From positions 8,366,501 through 8,430,500 of the forward strand of contig NZ_CP104578.1 of NCBI RefSeq assembly GCF_036826855.1: DNA of 64,000 bases. Direction: 5' to 3'. The translations under genes were made by a program, and so were the position numbers. This document shows, one piece after another, positions 3,881 through 64,000 of this stretch. The notes beneath the pieces are model-generated. The model was given only the letters and a program-made list of their open reading frames with translations, did not search any database and was not told the origin of the DNA. Source of the DNA: Streptomyces sp. SJL17-4. Its GTDB lineage: Bacteria > Actinomycetota > Actinomycetes > Streptomycetales > Streptomycetaceae. The first letter of the stretch is position 1. Each line of letters begins with the position of its first letter.

Positions 3881-4374
3881 CCGTTTTCGGCGGCTTCGAG
3901 ACTCTGGTGTCCAGAGAGTGAAGGCGCGCCGACAAGGTGGGGGTCGTGGTCATGGGGTGGCCCCCGGCAGGTAACCGGCGCAACGTCCTGCCGCCCGTAA
4001 CAAGGGGTTCACCTCCAGACGTTCTCACAGCGGGTGCAGCGGGTGCAGCGGGTGCAGCGGGTGCAGCGGGTGAAACCGAGCAGCGGCGGTATCGAGGGCG
4101 GTTATGCGGGGCCCCGGAAGGGGGTCGGGAAGTAGAAGGCGTTGACAGTAACGATGCGCCAGGGGCAGGTCAGCTTGCGGCGGCCTCGCGGCGACGTCCT
4201 TCCAGCCGCCAAGTCGCGGGTGACGACGTAGCTGACGTCGACGGAGGCCTCGGCCGCGACGAGCGGCGCGTGGCCAGGCACCTCGGCCCGGGCGATGGTC
4301 AGGCGCGGCCCGGGCATGGCCGTGTCGACGGTGACGTACCCGCCACTGGCTGATGAGCGACCACCCCAGCCCCC
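3881..4374. other. Gene-poor stretch with four 9-bp tandem repeats
   Basis: No convincing gene is present. At 4031-4071 a 9-bp unit (gcagcgggt) is repeated four times in tandem. A 71-codon minus-strand frame (4102-4317) has no ribosome binding site and no recognisable domain, so I do not call it. Confidence 0.5.
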
Positions 4375-56767: not shown

Positions 56768-56797
56768 TCCTGCGCTTCAGGCATGCGCTTGGGTACG

Positions 56798-56817
56798 GTA
56801 AATAACGTGACCCTTGC
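56798..56817 (+). repeat. Direct repeat copy B, at the 5' end of the recombinase-like gene
   Basis: gtaaataacgtgaccctt plus GC, identical to copy C. It contains a TAA stop and, one base later, the GTG start of the gene. Confidence 0.85.
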
Positions 56818-58006
56818 TCATGCGCTTCGGGTGTGGTCGGTGGTGTGTCGGATGGTGTCTGGCTTTGTGGGGGTTGGGTTGTCCGGTGTGACGTGTCGGG
56901 CGGTGCGGGGGCTTGTGGGGGCGGTGGAGCGGGTGGCTCCTCGGGGTGGGGTGTGGGAGGAGCGATTGCCCGTGGTGGGGGTGAAGGTGTCGCGGGTGCG
57001 GGCGCGGCAGTTGTGGATGGTGGTGGGGATGTGGGAGCGGGCGTTGAGTTCGCAACGCCTGCGGGAGATCGGGGCCGGTCCGGTGCAGGGGCTGTTCGAG
57101 CGGCCCGTGTTGCGGGTGTTCTGGGACCTGGCGCGCGCGGGGGAGCTGCGTGCGCTGGAGCCCGGGCAGGGGCGTGAACGAGCCTTGCCAGTGGCGACGT
57201 TGCGGATCGTGCGGGACTGCCTGGGGATCATGGCGGGGCTGGTGGTGCCCGAGGGGGTCACGGTGTCGTTGCCTGTGGTGGAGCAGCCGGAACCCAAGGC
57301 GGTGGTACGGGTGGAGATGCTGGGGGAGGTGTACCGGGGACTGGTGGAGCTGGCCGCGGGGGGCCCTGTGGAGCGGGAGGGCAAGACGTTGTCCTTCCAG
57401 GACCGTACGCGGCTGCTGGCCATGGTGTGTCTCGTACTGGACACCGGCGCGCGATCGGGGGAGCTCGCGGCGCTGCGCCTGGACGATCTGCCGCCCGGCC
57501 GTCAGACCGTCGGGCTGCGGCGCCGGCAGCAGAAAGCGTCGCCGAACCGTGCCGAGGAGATCGCCGAACTCGCCGGAGTCGCACCGTCGTCGGCGCGTGC
57601 GGTGCTGTGGGGCCAGGGCCACCGGCTCTCCGAGTCGCTGCGCCGGCGTGTCGAAGCCGCCCGGGACCAGCTCGAGCCGCTGCCCGACACCGAGTGGTAC
57701 GCGCTGCAGCCCGGCACCCAAGTGGCCCTGCGGCGCTGGTTCGAGGTGCGGGAACGGCTCGTGGAGCCCCTCCAAGGGGGACGTAACGCGCTGTGGGTCA
57801 CGCTGGTCCCCACCAAGGCGGGGCCTCCCGGCATCACCCTGCGGCACCAGGGACTGACCCAGGCCTTCGCCCGCGGCATGACCGCGCTGAACTGGGTCAT
57901 GGCCGGCCAGCCCGGCTGGGAGCCCATGCCGATCCGCATGGAGCAGCTGCGCCGCGCCCTCACCCCCGAACCCCTCCCCGTGCCCTTTACCGGCACCAGT
58001 AAATAA
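56807..58006 (+). CDS. Tyrosine-recombinase-like protein with LacI-type HTH insertion
   Basis: The protein has 399 residues from GTG 56807 (VTLAHALRVWSVVCRMVSGF). Residues about 200-230 (LLAMVCLVLDTGARSGELAA, LRLDDLPPG) match box I of tyrosine recombinases with its catalytic Arg. Residues about 248-280 (EEIAELAGVAPSSARAVLWG, QGHRLSESLRRRVEAARDQL) match the LacI-type helix-turn-helix. Near the C-terminus PIRMEQLRRALTPE sits where box II (HxLRR) is expected, with the His replaced, and no Tyr nucleophile follows before the stop. It is probably a DNA-binding protein derived from a recombinase. It is bounded by direct repeats at both ends. Confidence 0.75.
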   Translation: MTLAHALRVWSVVCRMVSGFVGVGLSGVTCRAVRGLVGAVERVAPRGGVWEERLPVVGVKVSRVRARQLWMVVGMWERALSSQRLREIGAGPVQGLFERPVLRVFWDLARAGELRALEPGQGRERALPVATLRIVRDCLGIMAGLVVPEGVTVSLPVVEQPEPKAVVRVEMLGEVYRGLVELAAGGPVEREGKTLSFQDRTRLLAMVCLVLDTGARSGELAALRLDDLPPGRQTVGLRRRQQKASPNRAEEIAELAGVAPSSARAVLWGQGHRLSESLRRRVEAARDQLEPLPDTEWYALQPGTQVALRRWFEVRERLVEPLQGGRNALWVTLVPTKAGPPGITLRHQGLTQAFARGMTALNWVMAGQPGWEPMPIRMEQLRRALTPEPLPVPFTGTSK

Positions 58007-58658: not shown

Positions 58659-59327
58659 TCAGGGGTGTGGTGAGGGGCCCGCCAGGCCGTTTTCGTACGC
58701 CAGGATCACCAGGTGAACCCTGTCGCGGGCGCCGAGTTTCGCCAGGAGCCGGGTCACGTAGGTCTTGGCCGTCGCGATGCTGATGGTCAGCTCGTGGGCG
58801 ATCTCGGTGTTGGTCAGGCCCGCGCCGATGAGGACGAGGACCTCCTTCTCCCGGTCCGTGATGCCCTGCAGCCGGCCCGTGGGCGCGGCGGCGGTGGTCG
58901 ACGGCGGCTGGGCGGTGAAGTCCTTGATGAGGCGCCGGGTGATTCCCGGCGCGATCAGCGCGTCCCCGGCGGCGACCACCCTGATCGCCCCGAGGATCTC
59001 CTCCAGGGCCATGTCCTTGACCAGGAAACCCGCCGCGCCGGCGCGTAGTGCCCCGTACACGTACTCGTCCTCGTCGAACGTCGTCAGGACGATGACCTGT
59101 GCCGCCGAAGGGCCCGCCGCGATCCGCCGGGTCGCCTCGATGCCGTCCATGCCGGGCATCCGGATGTCCATCACGATGACGTCCGGCGCCGCGTCCTTTG
59201 CGAGCCTGACCGCCTCCGCCCCGTCACCGGCCTCGCCGACGACCTCCATGTCATCGGCCTGGGCGATGACCATCTGCAGCGCGGTCCGCACCAGCGGCTG
59301 GTCGTCCACCAGCCCGACCCTGATCAC
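58659..59327 (-). CDS. NarL/FixJ-type response regulator
   Basis: The protein has 222 residues from GTG 59327 (MIRVGLVDDQPLVRTALQMV). The receiver domain has the Asp pair (VDDQ), the phosphorylated Asp in VIVMDIRMPGMDGIEATRRI, Thr/Thr in VIVLTTFDEDEYVYGALRAG and Lys in GFLVKDMALEEI. The LuxR-type HTH is at the C-terminus: LQGITDREKEVLVLIGAGLT, NTEIAHELTISIATAKTYVT and RLLAKLGARDRVHLVILAYE. It normally follows its kinase gene directly. The C-terminal part of a matching kinase lies on the same strand at 63.6 kb, separated by the replicon. Confidence 0.95.
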   Translation of the reverse strand: MIRVGLVDDQPLVRTALQMVIAQADDMEVVGEAGDGAEAVRLAKDAAPDVIVMDIRMPGMDGIEATRRIAAGPSAAQVIVLTTFDEDEYVYGALRAGAAGFLVKDMALEEILGAIRVVAAGDALIAPGITRRLIKDFTAQPPSTTAAAPTGRLQGITDREKEVLVLIGAGLTNTEIAHELTISIATAKTYVTRLLAKLGARDRVHLVILAYENGLAGPSPHP

Positions 59328-59535
59328 CGGACACCCCGCTCGGCACCCGCGTCCGCGCGTCCCGCGACGGCGCGGGTGCCGGAGGAAGGGAGGAGAGGGT
59401 GGTGGTTCCCGGGGGTGCGGCGGGCGGGCGGTGGCGCGGGTGTGGCGGCGGGCATCCGTCCATCGTAGTGCGACCCGCCCCCGACCACCCTTCCACCCAC
59501 GGCCACCCCTTCCGCCCACTCCCGCAGGCCCACCG

Positions 59536-59682
59536 TCAGCAGTCCGGAAGCATGTTGACGGCGGAGCAGTTCCAGCAGTCCGCTTCCACCGGCAGCAGGT
59601 ACTGCTCCGCCCACAGCCCGGACGGCCTGTCCCACACACTGTTCCTCTCGCCGCAGATCTCGCACCGGTACTCGTCGTCCAT
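59536..59682 (-). CDS. Small zinc-ribbon protein
   Basis: The protein has 48 residues from ATG 59682, with AAGGGAG upstream: MDDEYRCEICGERNSVWDRP, SGLWAEQYLLPVEADCWNCS and AVNMLPDC. Two CxxC pairs (CEIC, CWNC), 30 residues apart, would bind one zinc ion. It lies upstream of the response regulator on the same strand but 209 bp away. It is too short for most gene callers. The role is unknown. Confidence 0.6.
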   Translation of the reverse strand: MDDEYRCEICGERNSVWDRPSGLWAEQYLLPVEADCWNCSAVNMLPDC

Positions 59683-59849
59683 GCCCCGCTCCCTTCTGCA
59701 CAGGGCCGCGAGCCTGACAGCCACACCCGCCGGACGGACAGCGCCCCGGGCGCAGTTGGACAGCCACACGAAGCATCCGCATCTCCCACACCAAAAAGCC
59801 ACTCCTGTCCGGCAGGGGCGGGGCAGCGACTCAAAGAAACCTGCGCCCA

Positions 59850-60180
59850 CGGGGACTTCGGTCGCTGCACTGGAAGTGCATTCTCGCAGGTCACGGGCCT
59901 GTCGGGGCGCGGCGAGCGACCGAAGCGACTCTCATCTTCCATATATGGAAGCCATGAAGGAGTGTGCTGCCGCCTTCATAGACCGGAACTTCGGTCGCTT
60001 CAGTCGCTGTTGAGGGGACGCCGAGCCTCTCCCAGCTGGGGTTTCGCCGCCAGAGCCGCGCAGCGACCGAGCGAAGTCCGGTCGCTGCGCGCGGCGGTGG
60101 CCGCAAAAAATTTGGCTGTGTCCTCGATCGACAAGCTGTTTTAGTCTGTGTTCACCGAAGGGTCGCTTCGGTCGCTCTGG
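59850..60180. other. Predicted iteron-type replication origin
   Basis: TTCGGTCGCT occurs perfectly at 59857-59866, 59990-59999 and 60167-60176, and inverted at 59915-59924; one-mismatch or shortened copies lie at 60077-60086, 60062-60071 (inverted) and 60160-60167. A hairpin tgcact/agtgca with loop gga is at 59866-59880, a perfect palindrome CTTCCATATATGGAAG at 59936-59951, and an inverted repeat GCGCAGCGACCG/CGGTCGCTGCGC at 60058-60090. An A/T tract (aaaaaattt, 60105-60113) is a candidate unwinding element. The replication genes start directly after it. Confidence 0.75.
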
Positions 60181-60184
60181 GGGG

Positions 60185-61300
60185 ATGCGGATGCTTGATG
60201 ACCTGCGACGTCATCACACTGATGCATGGCGCGGCGCCATGCCCGGCAACACACGACTCGCCACCGCGCTGTGGTGCGCCGAGCAGGGCTGGCCGGTTCA
60301 CCCCCTGCTCCCGGGGCGCAAGATCCCCCTGGCCAACTGCACCGCCTGCCGCACCCCGGGACACACACCCGCCGGCTGCCCCTGCCCCGCAGCCCACCGT
60401 TGGTGCCACGGCTTCCACGCCGCCACCCTCGACACCGACCGCATCACCCGCTGGTGGACGGACAACCCCCACCACGGAGTAGGCGTCGCCTGCGGCCCCG
60501 CCCGCCTGGTCGTCATCGACATCGACACCCACCCCGCACCCCCGCCCGCCCGCGACCGGATCTGGCCCGGAATCGAGATCGGCGACACCGTCGACCTCAC
60601 CGGCCTCACCAACGGCTTCGACACCCTCGCCGTCCTCGCCGCCCTGCGCGGCCAGGACAACCCCGCCCACGACACCTCCACCCTGCGCGTACGGACACCC
60701 TCCGGCGGACTGCACCTCTGGTACCGCGCCGACGCCACACGCCACTGGCGCTGCTCCTCGGGCAACAGCCCCCAGCGCGCCCTCGCCTGGCAGGTCGACA
60801 TCCGCGCCCACGGCGGCTACATCGTCGCCCCCACGACCACCACCCCCACCGGCACCTACCAGCCCCTCGACGGCTCCCTGACCCCCGCCCCCCTGCCCGG
60901 CTGGCTCGCCGCCGAACTCGAACGCACCGGCCACCACCGCCCCCACGTCCCGCACCCCCGCAACCCCCGCCGCACCCCCGCACGCGCCCAGCAGGCCGTA
61001 CAGGCCGCAGGCGCGGGTCACCAGCGGATCACCCGGATCATGACCACCGTCCTGCAGGAGATCAACGACTGCGGACGCGTCCACGACGGTGCCGGCTTCA
61101 CCGCCGTCCTCAACCGGGCGGCCTACACCTTAGGAGGACTGGTGGCCGCCGGCCATATCACCCAGGACGCCGCCACCCAGGCCCTGCGGGAAGCGGCCCA
61201 CGCCGCCCGCCCCGGACAGGACCGGCGTTCCATGCAGATCATCGCCGGCGGCATGAGCGCCGGCCTGGCCCGCCCCCTCACCCCCGGCAGGCGCCGGTGA
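60185..61300 (+). CDS. Bifunctional DNA primase/polymerase (Prim-Pol)
   Basis: The protein has 371 residues from ATG 60185 (or ATG 60191). The N-terminal 210 residues are an archaeal-primase-like Prim-Pol domain: AEQGWPVHPLLPGRKIPLAN, VGVACGPARLVVIDIDTHPA (metal-binding DID), TLRVRTPSGGLHLWYRA and AWQVDIRAHGGYIVAPTTT. The C-terminal 130 residues are helical (RITRIMTTVLQEINDCGRVH). It would make primers at a plasmid origin. It directly follows the iterons, and its TGA overlaps the GTG of the helicase gene, so the two are coupled. Confidence 0.9.
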   Translation: MRMLDDLRRHHTDAWRGAMPGNTRLATALWCAEQGWPVHPLLPGRKIPLANCTACRTPGHTPAGCPCPAAHRWCHGFHAATLDTDRITRWWTDNPHHGVGVACGPARLVVIDIDTHPAPPPARDRIWPGIEIGDTVDLTGLTNGFDTLAVLAALRGQDNPAHDTSTLRVRTPSGGLHLWYRADATRHWRCSSGNSPQRALAWQVDIRAHGGYIVAPTTTTPTGTYQPLDGSLTPAPLPGWLAAELERTGHHRPHVPHPRNPRRTPARAQQAVQAAGAGHQRITRIMTTVLQEINDCGRVHDGAGFTAVLNRAAYTLGGLVAAGHITQDAATQALREAAHAARPGQDRRSMQIIAGGMSAGLARPLTPGRRR

Positions 61301-62829
61301 GCACCCCCACCACCCCGCCCCCCACCACCAGACCCGCAGCAGACGTCTTCGACGCACACACCGTCGCCGCCCAGATCCTCGCCCAGTCCGCCACCACCCC
61401 CCACCAGAACCCCAGCCCCCTCGCCGCCCACGGCACCGCCGGAGTCACCGACCAAGGCCTCCTCCCCGACACCCTCACCGACCGCGGCAACGCCAAACTC
61501 TTCGCCCGCCTCTACGCCCGCGACTACCGCTACGTCCCCGGACTCGGCTGGTACCGCTGGGATGGCTCCCGCTGGCAGGCCGACGAAGAAGAAACGGTCC
61601 TGTGGGCCGCGGGCGACCTCGCCGAAACCCTCGCCACCACCGACATCACCGGCCGCCACACCGTCCACACCCTCCTCCAGCACCGCCGCCGCGCCCTGTC
61701 CACCACCGGCATCAACGCCATGCTCGTCCAGGCCCGCAGCGCCCCCGGCATGACCCTCAACGCCGCCCTCCTCGACACCGACAGCTACGCCCTGTGCACC
61801 CCCGGCGGCATCGTCGACCTGCGCACCGGCCGCACCCGCCTGCCCGACCCCGACAAAGACTTCCACTCCCGCTCCACCACCACAGCCGCCAGCCACATGC
61901 CCACACCCCGCTGGCACCGCTTCCTCGCCGACACCTTCGGCGAGGACACCGACGGCCGGCAGATGACGGACTTCCTCCAGCTGTTACTCGGCTACTCCAT
62001 CACCGGAGACGTCGGCGGCCAGGTCATGCCCTTCCTCTTCGGAGCCGGAAAAAACGGCAAATCCGTCCTCCTCGACGTCCTGATGAAACTCCTCGGCGAC
62101 TACGCCGACGCCGCACCACCCGGCTTCCTCATGGCCCGCCCCTACGAAGGACACCCCACCGACCTCGCCGAACTCCACGGCCGCCGCGTCGTCGTCTGCA
62201 ACGAGGTCCGCCCCGGCGACAAATTCGACGAAGCCCGCGTCAAACTCCTCACCGGCGGCGACCGCATCAAAGCCCGCCGGATGCGCCAGGACTTCTTCTC
62301 CTTCCAGCCCACCCACAAACTCTGGCTCCTCGGAAACCACCGCCCCGAAGTCGGCACCGGCGGCTTCGCCTTCTGGCGCCGCATGCGGCTCATCCCCTTC
62401 GAACGCGTCGTCAGAGACGAACGCAAGGTCGACAACCTCGCCGACATCCTCGTCACAGAAGAAGGCCCCGGCATCCTCGGCTGGCTCATCGACGGCGCAC
62501 GCCGCTACCTCTCCGGCGACCGCGACCTCACCGGCCCCGAACAGATCCGCGTCGCCACCACCTCCTACGCCGAGACCGAGGACCACACCGGCCGCTTCTT
62601 CGAAGAACGGTGCACCCTCGGACATCACCACCGCGCCGAACAAGCACGCCTGTACGATGCCTACAAAAAGTGGTGCCAGAGCGAAGGGGCCCCGGCCATC
62701 ACCTCACGCGCCTTCGCGCAACGCGCACGCGAACTGGCCGGCCTGACCTCACCCAAGGAGATGGTCCTGTCGAACTCGCGAAAGTACTATCCGGGCATCG
62801 GTCTGCTCGCCGACGCGGAGGCCCCGTGA
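61297..62829 (+). CDS. D5/P4-type superfamily 3 replication helicase
   Basis: The protein has 510 residues from GTG 61297. After about 100 residues the D5 N-terminal region appears (GLGWYRWDGSRWQADEEETV, LLDTDSYALCTPGGIVDLRT). The helicase core has Walker A in LFGAGKNGKSVLLDVLMKLL (about residues 249-256), Walker B with Glu in RRVVVCNEVRPGDKFDEARV and the sensor Asn in HKLWLLGNHRPEVGTG. RVATTSYAETEDHTGRFFEE is the usual C-terminal winged-helix lead. This domain unwinds phage and plasmid origins as a hexamer. It forms the Rep module together with the Prim-Pol protein. Confidence 0.93.
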   Translation: MSTPTTPPPTTRPAADVFDAHTVAAQILAQSATTPHQNPSPLAAHGTAGVTDQGLLPDTLTDRGNAKLFARLYARDYRYVPGLGWYRWDGSRWQADEEETVLWAAGDLAETLATTDITGRHTVHTLLQHRRRALSTTGINAMLVQARSAPGMTLNAALLDTDSYALCTPGGIVDLRTGRTRLPDPDKDFHSRSTTTAASHMPTPRWHRFLADTFGEDTDGRQMTDFLQLLLGYSITGDVGGQVMPFLFGAGKNGKSVLLDVLMKLLGDYADAAPPGFLMARPYEGHPTDLAELHGRRVVVCNEVRPGDKFDEARVKLLTGGDRIKARRMRQDFFSFQPTHKLWLLGNHRPEVGTGGFAFWRRMRLIPFERVVRDERKVDNLADILVTEEGPGILGWLIDGARRYLSGDRDLTGPEQIRVATTSYAETEDHTGRFFEERCTLGHHHRAEQARLYDAYKKWCQSEGAPAITSRAFAQRARELAGLTSPKEMVLSNSRKYYPGIGLLADAEAP

Positions 62830-63215
62830 GCTCCCTGATCACCAACGACGAACTCACCCACGAGCACGACATCGTCTGGCTCGAACCCGTCGACACCCTC
62901 GACTACGTACGCCAGTCACTCGACCGGCTCCCCACCCGCCGCGGCAGACCGCCCTACCACCGCGACGGCCGCATGATCGGCTACGCCACCCTCACCCCCC
63001 AGGCCAAGCCCTCACGTGCCTCCGGAACCTTCCTGCGCCGCGTCTTCTGGCTCACACCCAACGACCGCGACACCACCCCCGACGGCCTCTACACCAAATG
63101 CACCCCCGCCGAAGCCGTCGACCCCCGCACCGTCAGCGCCCGCGAGAAGGGCCGGAAAACTCCCCGCTCCGAAGGCGACCGGCACGACTGCCCCACACCA
63201 CCACCACCCGCCTAG
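62826..63215 (+). CDS. Third gene of the replication operon, unknown function
   Basis: The protein has 129 residues; its GTG overlaps the helicase TGA (GTGA), so it is translationally coupled. VSSLITNDELTHEHDIVWLE, DYVRQSLDRLPTRRGRPPYH, GRMIGYATLTPQAKPSRASG and TFLRRVFWLTPNDRDTTPDG look like a small basic alpha/beta protein. The tail is Pro/Thr-rich. A DNA-binding accessory role in replication or copy control is a reasonable guess from position only. Confidence 0.7.
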   Translation: MSSLITNDELTHEHDIVWLEPVDTLDYVRQSLDRLPTRRGRPPYHRDGRMIGYATLTPQAKPSRASGTFLRRVFWLTPNDRDTTPDGLYTKCTPAEAVDPRTVSAREKGRKTPRSEGDRHDCPTPPPPA

Positions 63216-63603
63216 TAGTGCTTCGTGAGGTTCTTCGTCTGGTTCTGTTGCGGGGCGGGCGTCGGCCGCAGGTGGTGCAGGTGCCGGTCCAGCAGCCCGA
63301 GAGCCAGATGGGTTTTGGAGACGCGCCGGACGTCGTCGGGGATCCCAGCCCTTCTTCGCCGTCCCTCGTCGTCCGCCCATTCCTCGGGCAGGAACAACGA
63401 CACATCGTCGATCACCCACACCTCAAGGCTGATCGCCTTGCTCAATCGCTCGGCGATCCGCTGCCGCACCGGCAGCGGATCCCAACGCGACTGGTTCACG
63501 AACTGCTGCAGGGCCTGCATGTTCCCGTCCGGCAACCGCCCGGCCATCGGCTGGACCGACTTACGCCGCCCGTCCAGCATCAGGCCCCGCAGATAACACC
63601 CGC
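63212..63603 (-). pseudogene. IS701-family transposase N-terminal fragment
   Basis: The minus frame gives RGLMLDGRRKSVQPMAGRLP, DGNMQALQQFVNQSRWDPLP and RQRIAERLSKAISLEVWVID, with the first Asp of the catalytic set in VIDDVS. It then jumps to LFLPEEWADDEGRRRRAGIP and RRVSKTHLALGLLDRHLHHL. An internal deletion of about 50-60 residues separates the parts, and the C-terminal half is missing. Its 5' end abuts the C-terminus of the histidine kinase gene. Confidence 0.8.
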
Positions 63604-64000
63604 CCCACCGGCAGCGTCGCCGCCACCCGGAACCCCCCCGACGGCACACCACCCGCCGAGAACTCACCACCCAGCAACGCCACCCGCTCACGCATCCCGA
63701 TGAGCCCGTACCCCACTCCCACCCGGTCCGCAGGACCCGACCCGCCGTCCGTGACCTCCACCCCCAGCTCACCGGACCTGAAGGCGATCACCACACGGCA
63801 CGCACCCGTCCCCGCATGCCGGATGACATTCGTGACCGACTCCTGCACGATCCGGAACGCCGCGAAATCCACCTCCTGCGGCAACGGCCGGCGCTCCCCC
63901 TCCCAGCACACCTCCACCCGCACCCCCGCTCCGCCGGCCTCCGCCGCCAGCCGCTCGACCCCACCCAGCCCCTCCAGCGGATCCAACGGCGCCGCCGCGT
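63561..64000 (-). CDS. NarL-family sensor histidine kinase, C-terminal part, 5' end beyond window
   Basis: The frame is open to the right edge. PLPQEVDFAAFRIVQESVTN and VIRHAGTGACRVVIAFRS hold the N-box of a HATPase_c domain of the NarX/DegS type. ELGVEVTDGGSGPADRVGVG with YGLIGMRERVALLGGEFSAG supplies the G boxes. The true C-terminus (ATLPVGRV) runs into IS701 sequence and stops about 14 codons later at 63561. It should phosphorylate a LuxR-type response regulator; the likely partner is the gene at 58659-59327 on the same strand. Confidence 0.9.
   Translation of the reverse strand, partial: AAAPLDPLEGLGGVERLAAEAGGAGVRVEVCWEGERRPLPQEVDFAAFRIVQESVTNVIRHAGTGACRVVIAFRSGELGVEVTDGGSGPADRVGVGYGLIGMRERVALLGGEFSAGGVPSGGFRVAATLPVGRVLSAGPDAGRAA

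Follow-up and report, generated by a model that had tools for sequence, protein, structure and literature searches.

A plasmid-type replicon separates a sensor kinase gene from a response regulator gene in a chromosome arm of Streptomyces sp. SJL17-4

According to the available text of the source, an iteron together with the genes for RepB, a predicted DNA primase/polymerase, and RepA forms the proven replication locus of plasmid pWTY27 (PMC3583192). In S. griseofuscus, a plasmid primase/helicase region, called essential for replication in the accessible sections, was targeted to cure the plasmid (PMC8443760). Linear plasmids and chromosome ends are also known to exchange DNA in Streptomyces, as far as the available parts of the reports go (PMC7205883, PMC8743542). 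The locus described here resembles the repAB locus of pWTY27 in that iterons lie beside a predicted primase/polymerase gene and a second replication gene; the likeness is one of description, pWTY27 being a 14-kb plasmid whose RepA is a hypothetical protein. As in the linear plasmid cases, plasmid-type DNA is found here in a subtelomeric arm. The locus has no name to search by and was not recognised in the literature searched, and no mention of DUF6009, the product of its third coupled gene, was found there. Rather than a new kind of system, it appears to be a well-preserved instance of plasmid-chromosome shuffling of the sort already known.

The window, that is, the whole 64,000-nucleotide stretch that was analysed, covers positions 8366501-8430500 of an 8,543,434-bp single-contig genome (G000:C1), which places the locus ~112-118 kb from the right chromosome end. 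Reading was extended beyond the window edge via stretch L009 (window coordinate = L009 coordinate + 53499). An initial annotation had placed a regulator and a kinase, both on the minus strand, about 4.2 kb apart, with iterons, Prim-Pol, a D5-type helicase, a third coupled gene and an IS701 fragment between them. The coordinates are right, the gap from regulator start to kinase stop measuring 4233 bp, and Pfam searches, word counts and alignments agree on its contents, which also include a 48-aa ORF (Table 1). The two proteins have the domains of a NarX/NarL-type pair, yet 4233 bp separate genes that in such a pair are adjacent or overlapping. The kinase, P0001, has 410 aa from the chosen ATG at window position 64793 (L009:10062-11294); an alternative upstream ATG would give 451 aa. 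Beyond it, divergently oriented, lie genes for an ABC ATPase and then an ABC-2 permease.

Table 1 Features of the split locus, in window coordinates.
Feature	Position	Strand	Basis
NarL/LuxR-type response regulator P0002, 222 aa, GTG start	58659-59327	-	Response_reg + GerE (Pfam)
Possible relic of kinase 3' end, frame ...AERGVR*	59324-59344	-	TGA overlaps regulator GTG; read from sequence
48-aa ORF P0006, two CxxC pairs, possibly plasmid-derived	59536-59682	-	Plasmid relatives
Iteron region, seven GGTCGCT/AGCGACC in both orientations, upstream of Prim-Pol	59860-60176		Word count
Prim-Pol bifunctional DNA primase/polymerase P0003	60185-61300	+	PF09250, E 8e-37
D5/P4-family primase-helicase	61297-62829	+	PF08706, PF19263, PF03288; TIGR01613 above its cut-off
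DUF6009 protein P0004, third coupled gene	62826-63215	+	PF19472, E 1e-57
Decayed IS701-type remnant	63212-63610	-	Alignment to copies in other genomes
NarX/DegS-type sensor kinase P0001, C-terminal part in window	63561-64000, gene to ~64793	-	HisKA_3 + HATPase_c

The inserted module belongs to a type that is common among Streptomyces plasmids. Its Prim-Pol, D5 and DUF6009 genes, each with a Pfam match above the cut-off, follow one another with 4-bp GTGA overlaps at both junctions, and the iterons stand upstream of Prim-Pol. The iteron word reached a count of at most two in 2000 first-order Markov shuffles, and the commonest 7-mer of any kind reached at least seven in 5 of them; seven copies are also present in Streptomyces sp. 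CG 926 and in the plasmid pSglau1 (NZ_CP009439). We compared 81 replicon loci, namely the 80 best of 263 helicase relatives in the genome collection plus pSglau1. DUF6009 follows D5 in all 81, Prim-Pol precedes it in 72, and the three genes stand in this order in 72. Three or more copies of the iteron word stand within 500 bp upstream of Prim-Pol in 58 of the 68 loci that could be tested, against none in a control stretch inside Prim-Pol. Matches to some part of the insert query, IS piece included, come from 359 plasmid records, and each of the 30 plasmid matches listed covers 67-73% of the query. The best is pSglau1 (73% of the query at 75.9% DNA identity), which also has the same gene order and start/stop overlaps. 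Unlike in pSglau1, the module lies here in a chromosome arm, between kinase and regulator genes, and no other recognised plasmid maintenance gene accompanies it there. A search of 199 genomes of the genus found DUF6009 relatives in 57 of them, with one copy in this genome. The small ORF P0006 has no match in NCBIfam; relatives at below 60% identity are present in 25 Streptomyces plasmid records, a 95.7% identical one in CG 926 and another in L215, on a chromosome-sized contig. By its kind, the module likely supports replication, and the proteins that it encodes are probably still functional.

At E <= 1e-60, the kinase is matched in 54 of 150 genomes of the genus; at E <= 1e-70, the regulator is matched in 66 of the 150. 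Among 88 loci examined (86 from other genomes or plasmids and two own-genome paralogues), 82 hold both genes (tblastn, E <= 1e-25); three have the kinase alone (L023, L027, L052) and three the regulator alone (L061, L079, L002), some of these six being cut by contig ends. Once redundancy had been removed by kinase sequence, 62 distinct pairs were left; in every one, both genes share a strand and their matched ends are separated by -6 to 132 bp. The protein search that the initial annotation had proposed thus finds the two genes to be neighbours in nearly all relatives examined. The regulators that adjoin a kinase share ~59-76% amino acid identity with P0002. The comparison with an empty site, also proposed there, yielded nothing: no close relative with such a site was found, the best contiguous kinases being only ~45-63% identical to P0001. 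These comparisons support the view that a replicon of plasmid type sits between genes that almost all of the relatives examined have side by side. The possibility that the regulator-replicon-kinase architecture is widely conserved was considered and rejected, since among the 80 best of 263 helicase relatives (flanks of up to 6 kb, some shorter) only that of CG 926 has this kinase and regulator nearby; the same spacing in unrelated genomes, which would have spoken against an insertion, was not seen among these loci.

Contiguous versions of the cluster are found on plasmids. Eight plasmid records that match the ABC gene were examined. In seven of them the kinase and regulator genes have a 4-bp overlap and lie next to the same ABC genes; in the eighth (L243) the start of the record truncates the regulator. 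The seven, from NBC_01108, 01240, 01238, 01321, 01591, 01431 and 01224, agree with the window in the order and orientations of the four genes, and the DNA matches run in its gene order. Their kinases are only 44-50% identical to P0001, and where they overlap the regulator the window has its 4233-bp gap. Four of the clusters (L238, L239, L240 and L244) are near-identical to each other, so the records amount to about four independent plasmid cases. Such ABC/kinase/regulator clusters therefore travel on plasmids. NBC_01224 (L245) has both the cluster and a Prim-Pol/D5/DUF6009 module on one plasmid, ~8-10 kb apart and not interleaved. A relative of P0005, the gene at 56783-58006 on the far side of the regulator, also occurs in four of the fetched plasmid stretches, and the record of L243 has one elsewhere.

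It could be argued that this kinase and this regulator were never partners, and that separate rearrangements of plasmid DNA put two two-component fragments around a replicon. The locus is indeed a mosaic, as P0005 matches plasmid genes and synteny with CG 926 breaks off immediately to its left. The tree test gives no more than a moderate result: the distances of the window pair correlate with a rho of 0.58, against a median of 0.57 and a minimum of -0.17 for the other pairs, which ranks it 28 of 63, and the nearest kinase (L014) and nearest regulator (L206) belong to different genomes. Set against the kinase tree, P0002 has a rho of 0.62, a left-arm regulator, L002, 0.63, a third, L003, -0.54 and five other own-genome regulators -0.32, so the test does not choose between P0002 and L002. 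The initial annotation had named a better-fitting regulator elsewhere as a finding that would count against it; no clearly better partner turned up in this genome, although L002 fits equally well. The L002 regulator (in the stretch G000:C1:188441 to ~190584, which includes the kinase sequence beside it) is 69% identical to P0002 in amino acid sequence, and its nearest relatives, L040 and L035, pair with kinases ranking 37 and 35 of 62 from P0001. Beside it lies kinase sequence whose sole match to P0001 is one stretch of 87 residues, with a kinase-like end in a broken frame; this kinase is apparently damaged, either frameshifted or cut. Next to the other close regulator paralogue, at 4.00 Mb, lies a kinase gene whose frame is open. 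Against the idea of unrelated fragments stand the kinase sequences beside these two closest paralogues of P0002, the subfamily, strand and order of the window genes, which are those of contiguous pairs, and the plasmid clusters, in which ABC genes, kinase and regulator come in the same order. On balance we find the idea improbable.

The reading that we prefer, and hold to be very probable, is that a plasmid-type replicon was inserted into a once contiguous ABC-transporter/kinase/regulator cluster before the split from CG 926, and that the IS and a deletion came later. The relevant contig of CG 926 (L121, NZ_QGGZ01000019.1) is ~92-97% identical over 56688-69048 in window coordinates. There, the same genes flank the same replicon, no IS is present, and the CTAG that ends DUF6009 is uninterrupted. 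The split is therefore shared by the two strains, and the IS is later than the replicon. In CG 926, the 380 bp at 63216-63595 are replaced by 172 bp without IS sequence, of which ~29 bp are the tail and stop of its own kinase; no convincing match to this 172-bp stretch was found among the fetched loci. The left boundary of the replicon can be placed only within 59345-59856 (~500 bp). The two CG 926 junction stretches (300 and 230 bp) share no exact word of 9 bp or longer, so no insertion mechanism is marked there.

The IS remnant aligns to copies elsewhere in three blocks (63610-63396, 63398-63283 and 63294-63210). It has kept one end, at the CTAG, and has lost ~140 bp of the other, along with two internal deletions. 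Its homology to IS701-family copies, their end sequence and the CTAG target assign it to that family, and annotations of plasmid genes that match it read IS701 family transposase; as only one of its ends is left, it is not a complete element. The target CTAG is at 63212-63215, and the DUF6009 stop TAG forms part of it. Of six left ends compared in copies elsewhere, five start with TAGTGCTTCG or a close variant after CTAG; the right end could be read in three copies, all of which finish with CGAAGCACTA before CTAG, and it is that end which the remnant retains at the DUF6009 CTAG. The remnant is fused to the kinase at CGGTGGGGCGG (63600-63610), a sequence that is also present in the CG 926 kinase tail; the length that it shares with the IS varies from copy to copy (8-11 bp).

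From these observations the following course can be proposed. A module of iterons, Prim-Pol, D5 and DUF6009 would have entered the 3' end of the kinase gene, or the junction between kinase and regulator, in a contiguous cluster, before the copy of the locus in this strain parted from that of CG 926. Later, on the side of this strain only, an IS701-type element would have inserted into the CTAG that includes the DUF6009 stop, and the present junction would probably have arisen when a deletion, via 8-11 bp of microhomology, joined the IS to the kinase tail. Replicon first, IS second and deletion third is the simplest reading of the two sequences. We infer that the route was recombination of plasmid DNA, and that the deletion step and a continued replication function belong to this history.

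The initial annotation had offered replicon capture or IS-mediated insertion as the cause of the gap. Insertion of a replicon stands, whereas delivery by the visible IS does not. An IS701-type remnant does lie at one junction, and at least one plasmid (L245) has an annotated IS701-family transposase next to DUF6009, as would suit an IS that brought the replicon into the operon. The replicon of CG 926, with no IS and an intact CTAG, leads us to reject the visible fragment as its carrier; moreover, no other copy of the remnant was found in this genome at E <= 0.001, nor any on the regulator side, and its end words are absent from L245 and from all 80 of the best of 263 helicase loci. We regard an IS701-type carrier as very improbable; an older element, since lost, could still have been the vehicle. 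The IS beside DUF6009 on L245 was also considered as the same insertion and rejected, as L245 lacks the end words of the window IS. Slimmest of all is the chance that the replicon belongs to an AICE- or phage-like element that integrates site-specifically at this junction: Prim-Pol/D5 genes do occur in actinophages (82 phage records match) and the weakly tyrosine recombinase-like P0005 lies across the regulator, but the Pfam scan found no integrase among the three genes between regulator and kinase, the junction stretches have no common word of at least 9 bp that could serve as att-type direct repeats, no second case besides CG 926 exists among the 80 best of 263 helicase loci, and P0005 is outside the element and below the Phage_integrase cut-off.

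The frames of both flanking genes are open, so the kinase-regulator pair probably still functions. The initial annotation had the IS701 fragment exactly at the kinase end; a fragment is there, but the final ~14 codons of the kinase frame as it now stands come from it. P0001 diverges from the CG 926 kinase right after ...AATLPVGR, at the start of the IS match. The exchange of these ~14 C-terminal residues should be tolerated, as the IS-coded tail lies past the ATPase-domain match, which ends at residue 397. At the other end of the gap, the ...AERGVR* frame is present in both strains, and the kinases of several relatives end in ...LPVPAGVR* or ...AR* with the stop overlapping the regulator start; it is suggestive that ...AERGVR* looks like the last codons of a kinase. 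Cut off from read-through from the kinase, the regulator would need another promoter; a scan of 59200-60300, of a kind that covers Streptomyces promoters poorly, returned no sigma-70-type promoter-like and no terminator-like site. Just upstream of the regulator, CG 926 has 75 extra bp in in-frame repeat units (window ~59340-59385 vs L121 ~3980-4056), which look like a variable-number repeat.

We computed dN/dS against CG 926 for nine genes, with one-sided p values against neutrality. The ratio is 0.25 for D5 (p 0.002), 0.32 for the kinase (p 0.0006), 0.28 for DUF6009 (p 0.04), 0.44 for Prim-Pol (p 0.045) and 0.41 for the regulator (p 0.06); those of the ABC ATPase (0.56), permease (0.75), YbaK-like gene (0.44) and P0005 (0.78) are not significantly below or above 1. 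With small counts (11-38 changes per gene) and nine genes tested, only the kinase and D5 survive correction. Purifying selection has acted on these two since the split from the CG 926 copy. The locus is an example, ordered in time by comparison of two strains, of a plasmid replication module arriving in a Streptomyces chromosome arm and interrupting a conserved operon, with the genes to either side remaining open. If still active, the module would serve as a natural second origin close to one end of the chromosome.

Synteny with CG 926 ends just left of 56.69 kb, at P0005, and runs rightwards to at least G000 8,459,998, ~37 kb in all. Identity is 97-98% in the L010 pieces, except that no match of this level covers L010 5629-9828, the stretch in which both CG 926 contigs run out. 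For two 20-kb pieces that lie beyond the shared block on the CG 926 contig, this genome has no syntenic counterpart. The shared block may be a captured plasmid arm. A bolder version, which we think rather unlikely, is that everything from ~56.7 kb rightwards is a captured linear plasmid whose replicon still fires, giving a second plasmid-type origin ~0.12 Mb from the end, and that the regulator is expressed with the replicon, coupling the ABC transporter system to replication.

Several minor observations concern the flanking DNA. P0005 has relatives on many Streptomyces plasmids of ~88-177 kb and is weakly like tyrosine recombinases and LacI (Phage_integrase 16.6 bits vs a cut-off of 27.1). 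In L009:16112-19593 and on into L010, a VOC/HPPD-type dioxygenase, identified by a protein scan, is followed by frames resembling an alpha-hydroxyacid oxidase and an aminotransferase and then by repetitive modular DNA with many paralogous matches. The VOC/HPPD-type protein and the modular DNA suggest a peptide-antibiotic cluster; together with the oxidase- and aminotransferase-like genes, we take this to be probably of the hydroxyphenylglycine type. Finally, at ~10.5-11.5 kb of L250 (G000:C1:8523500-8543434) there is a 78-84% match to helix-turn-helix genes on plasmids, and several of these plasmid matches lie close to the end of the plasmid, as expected for terminal-region exchange.
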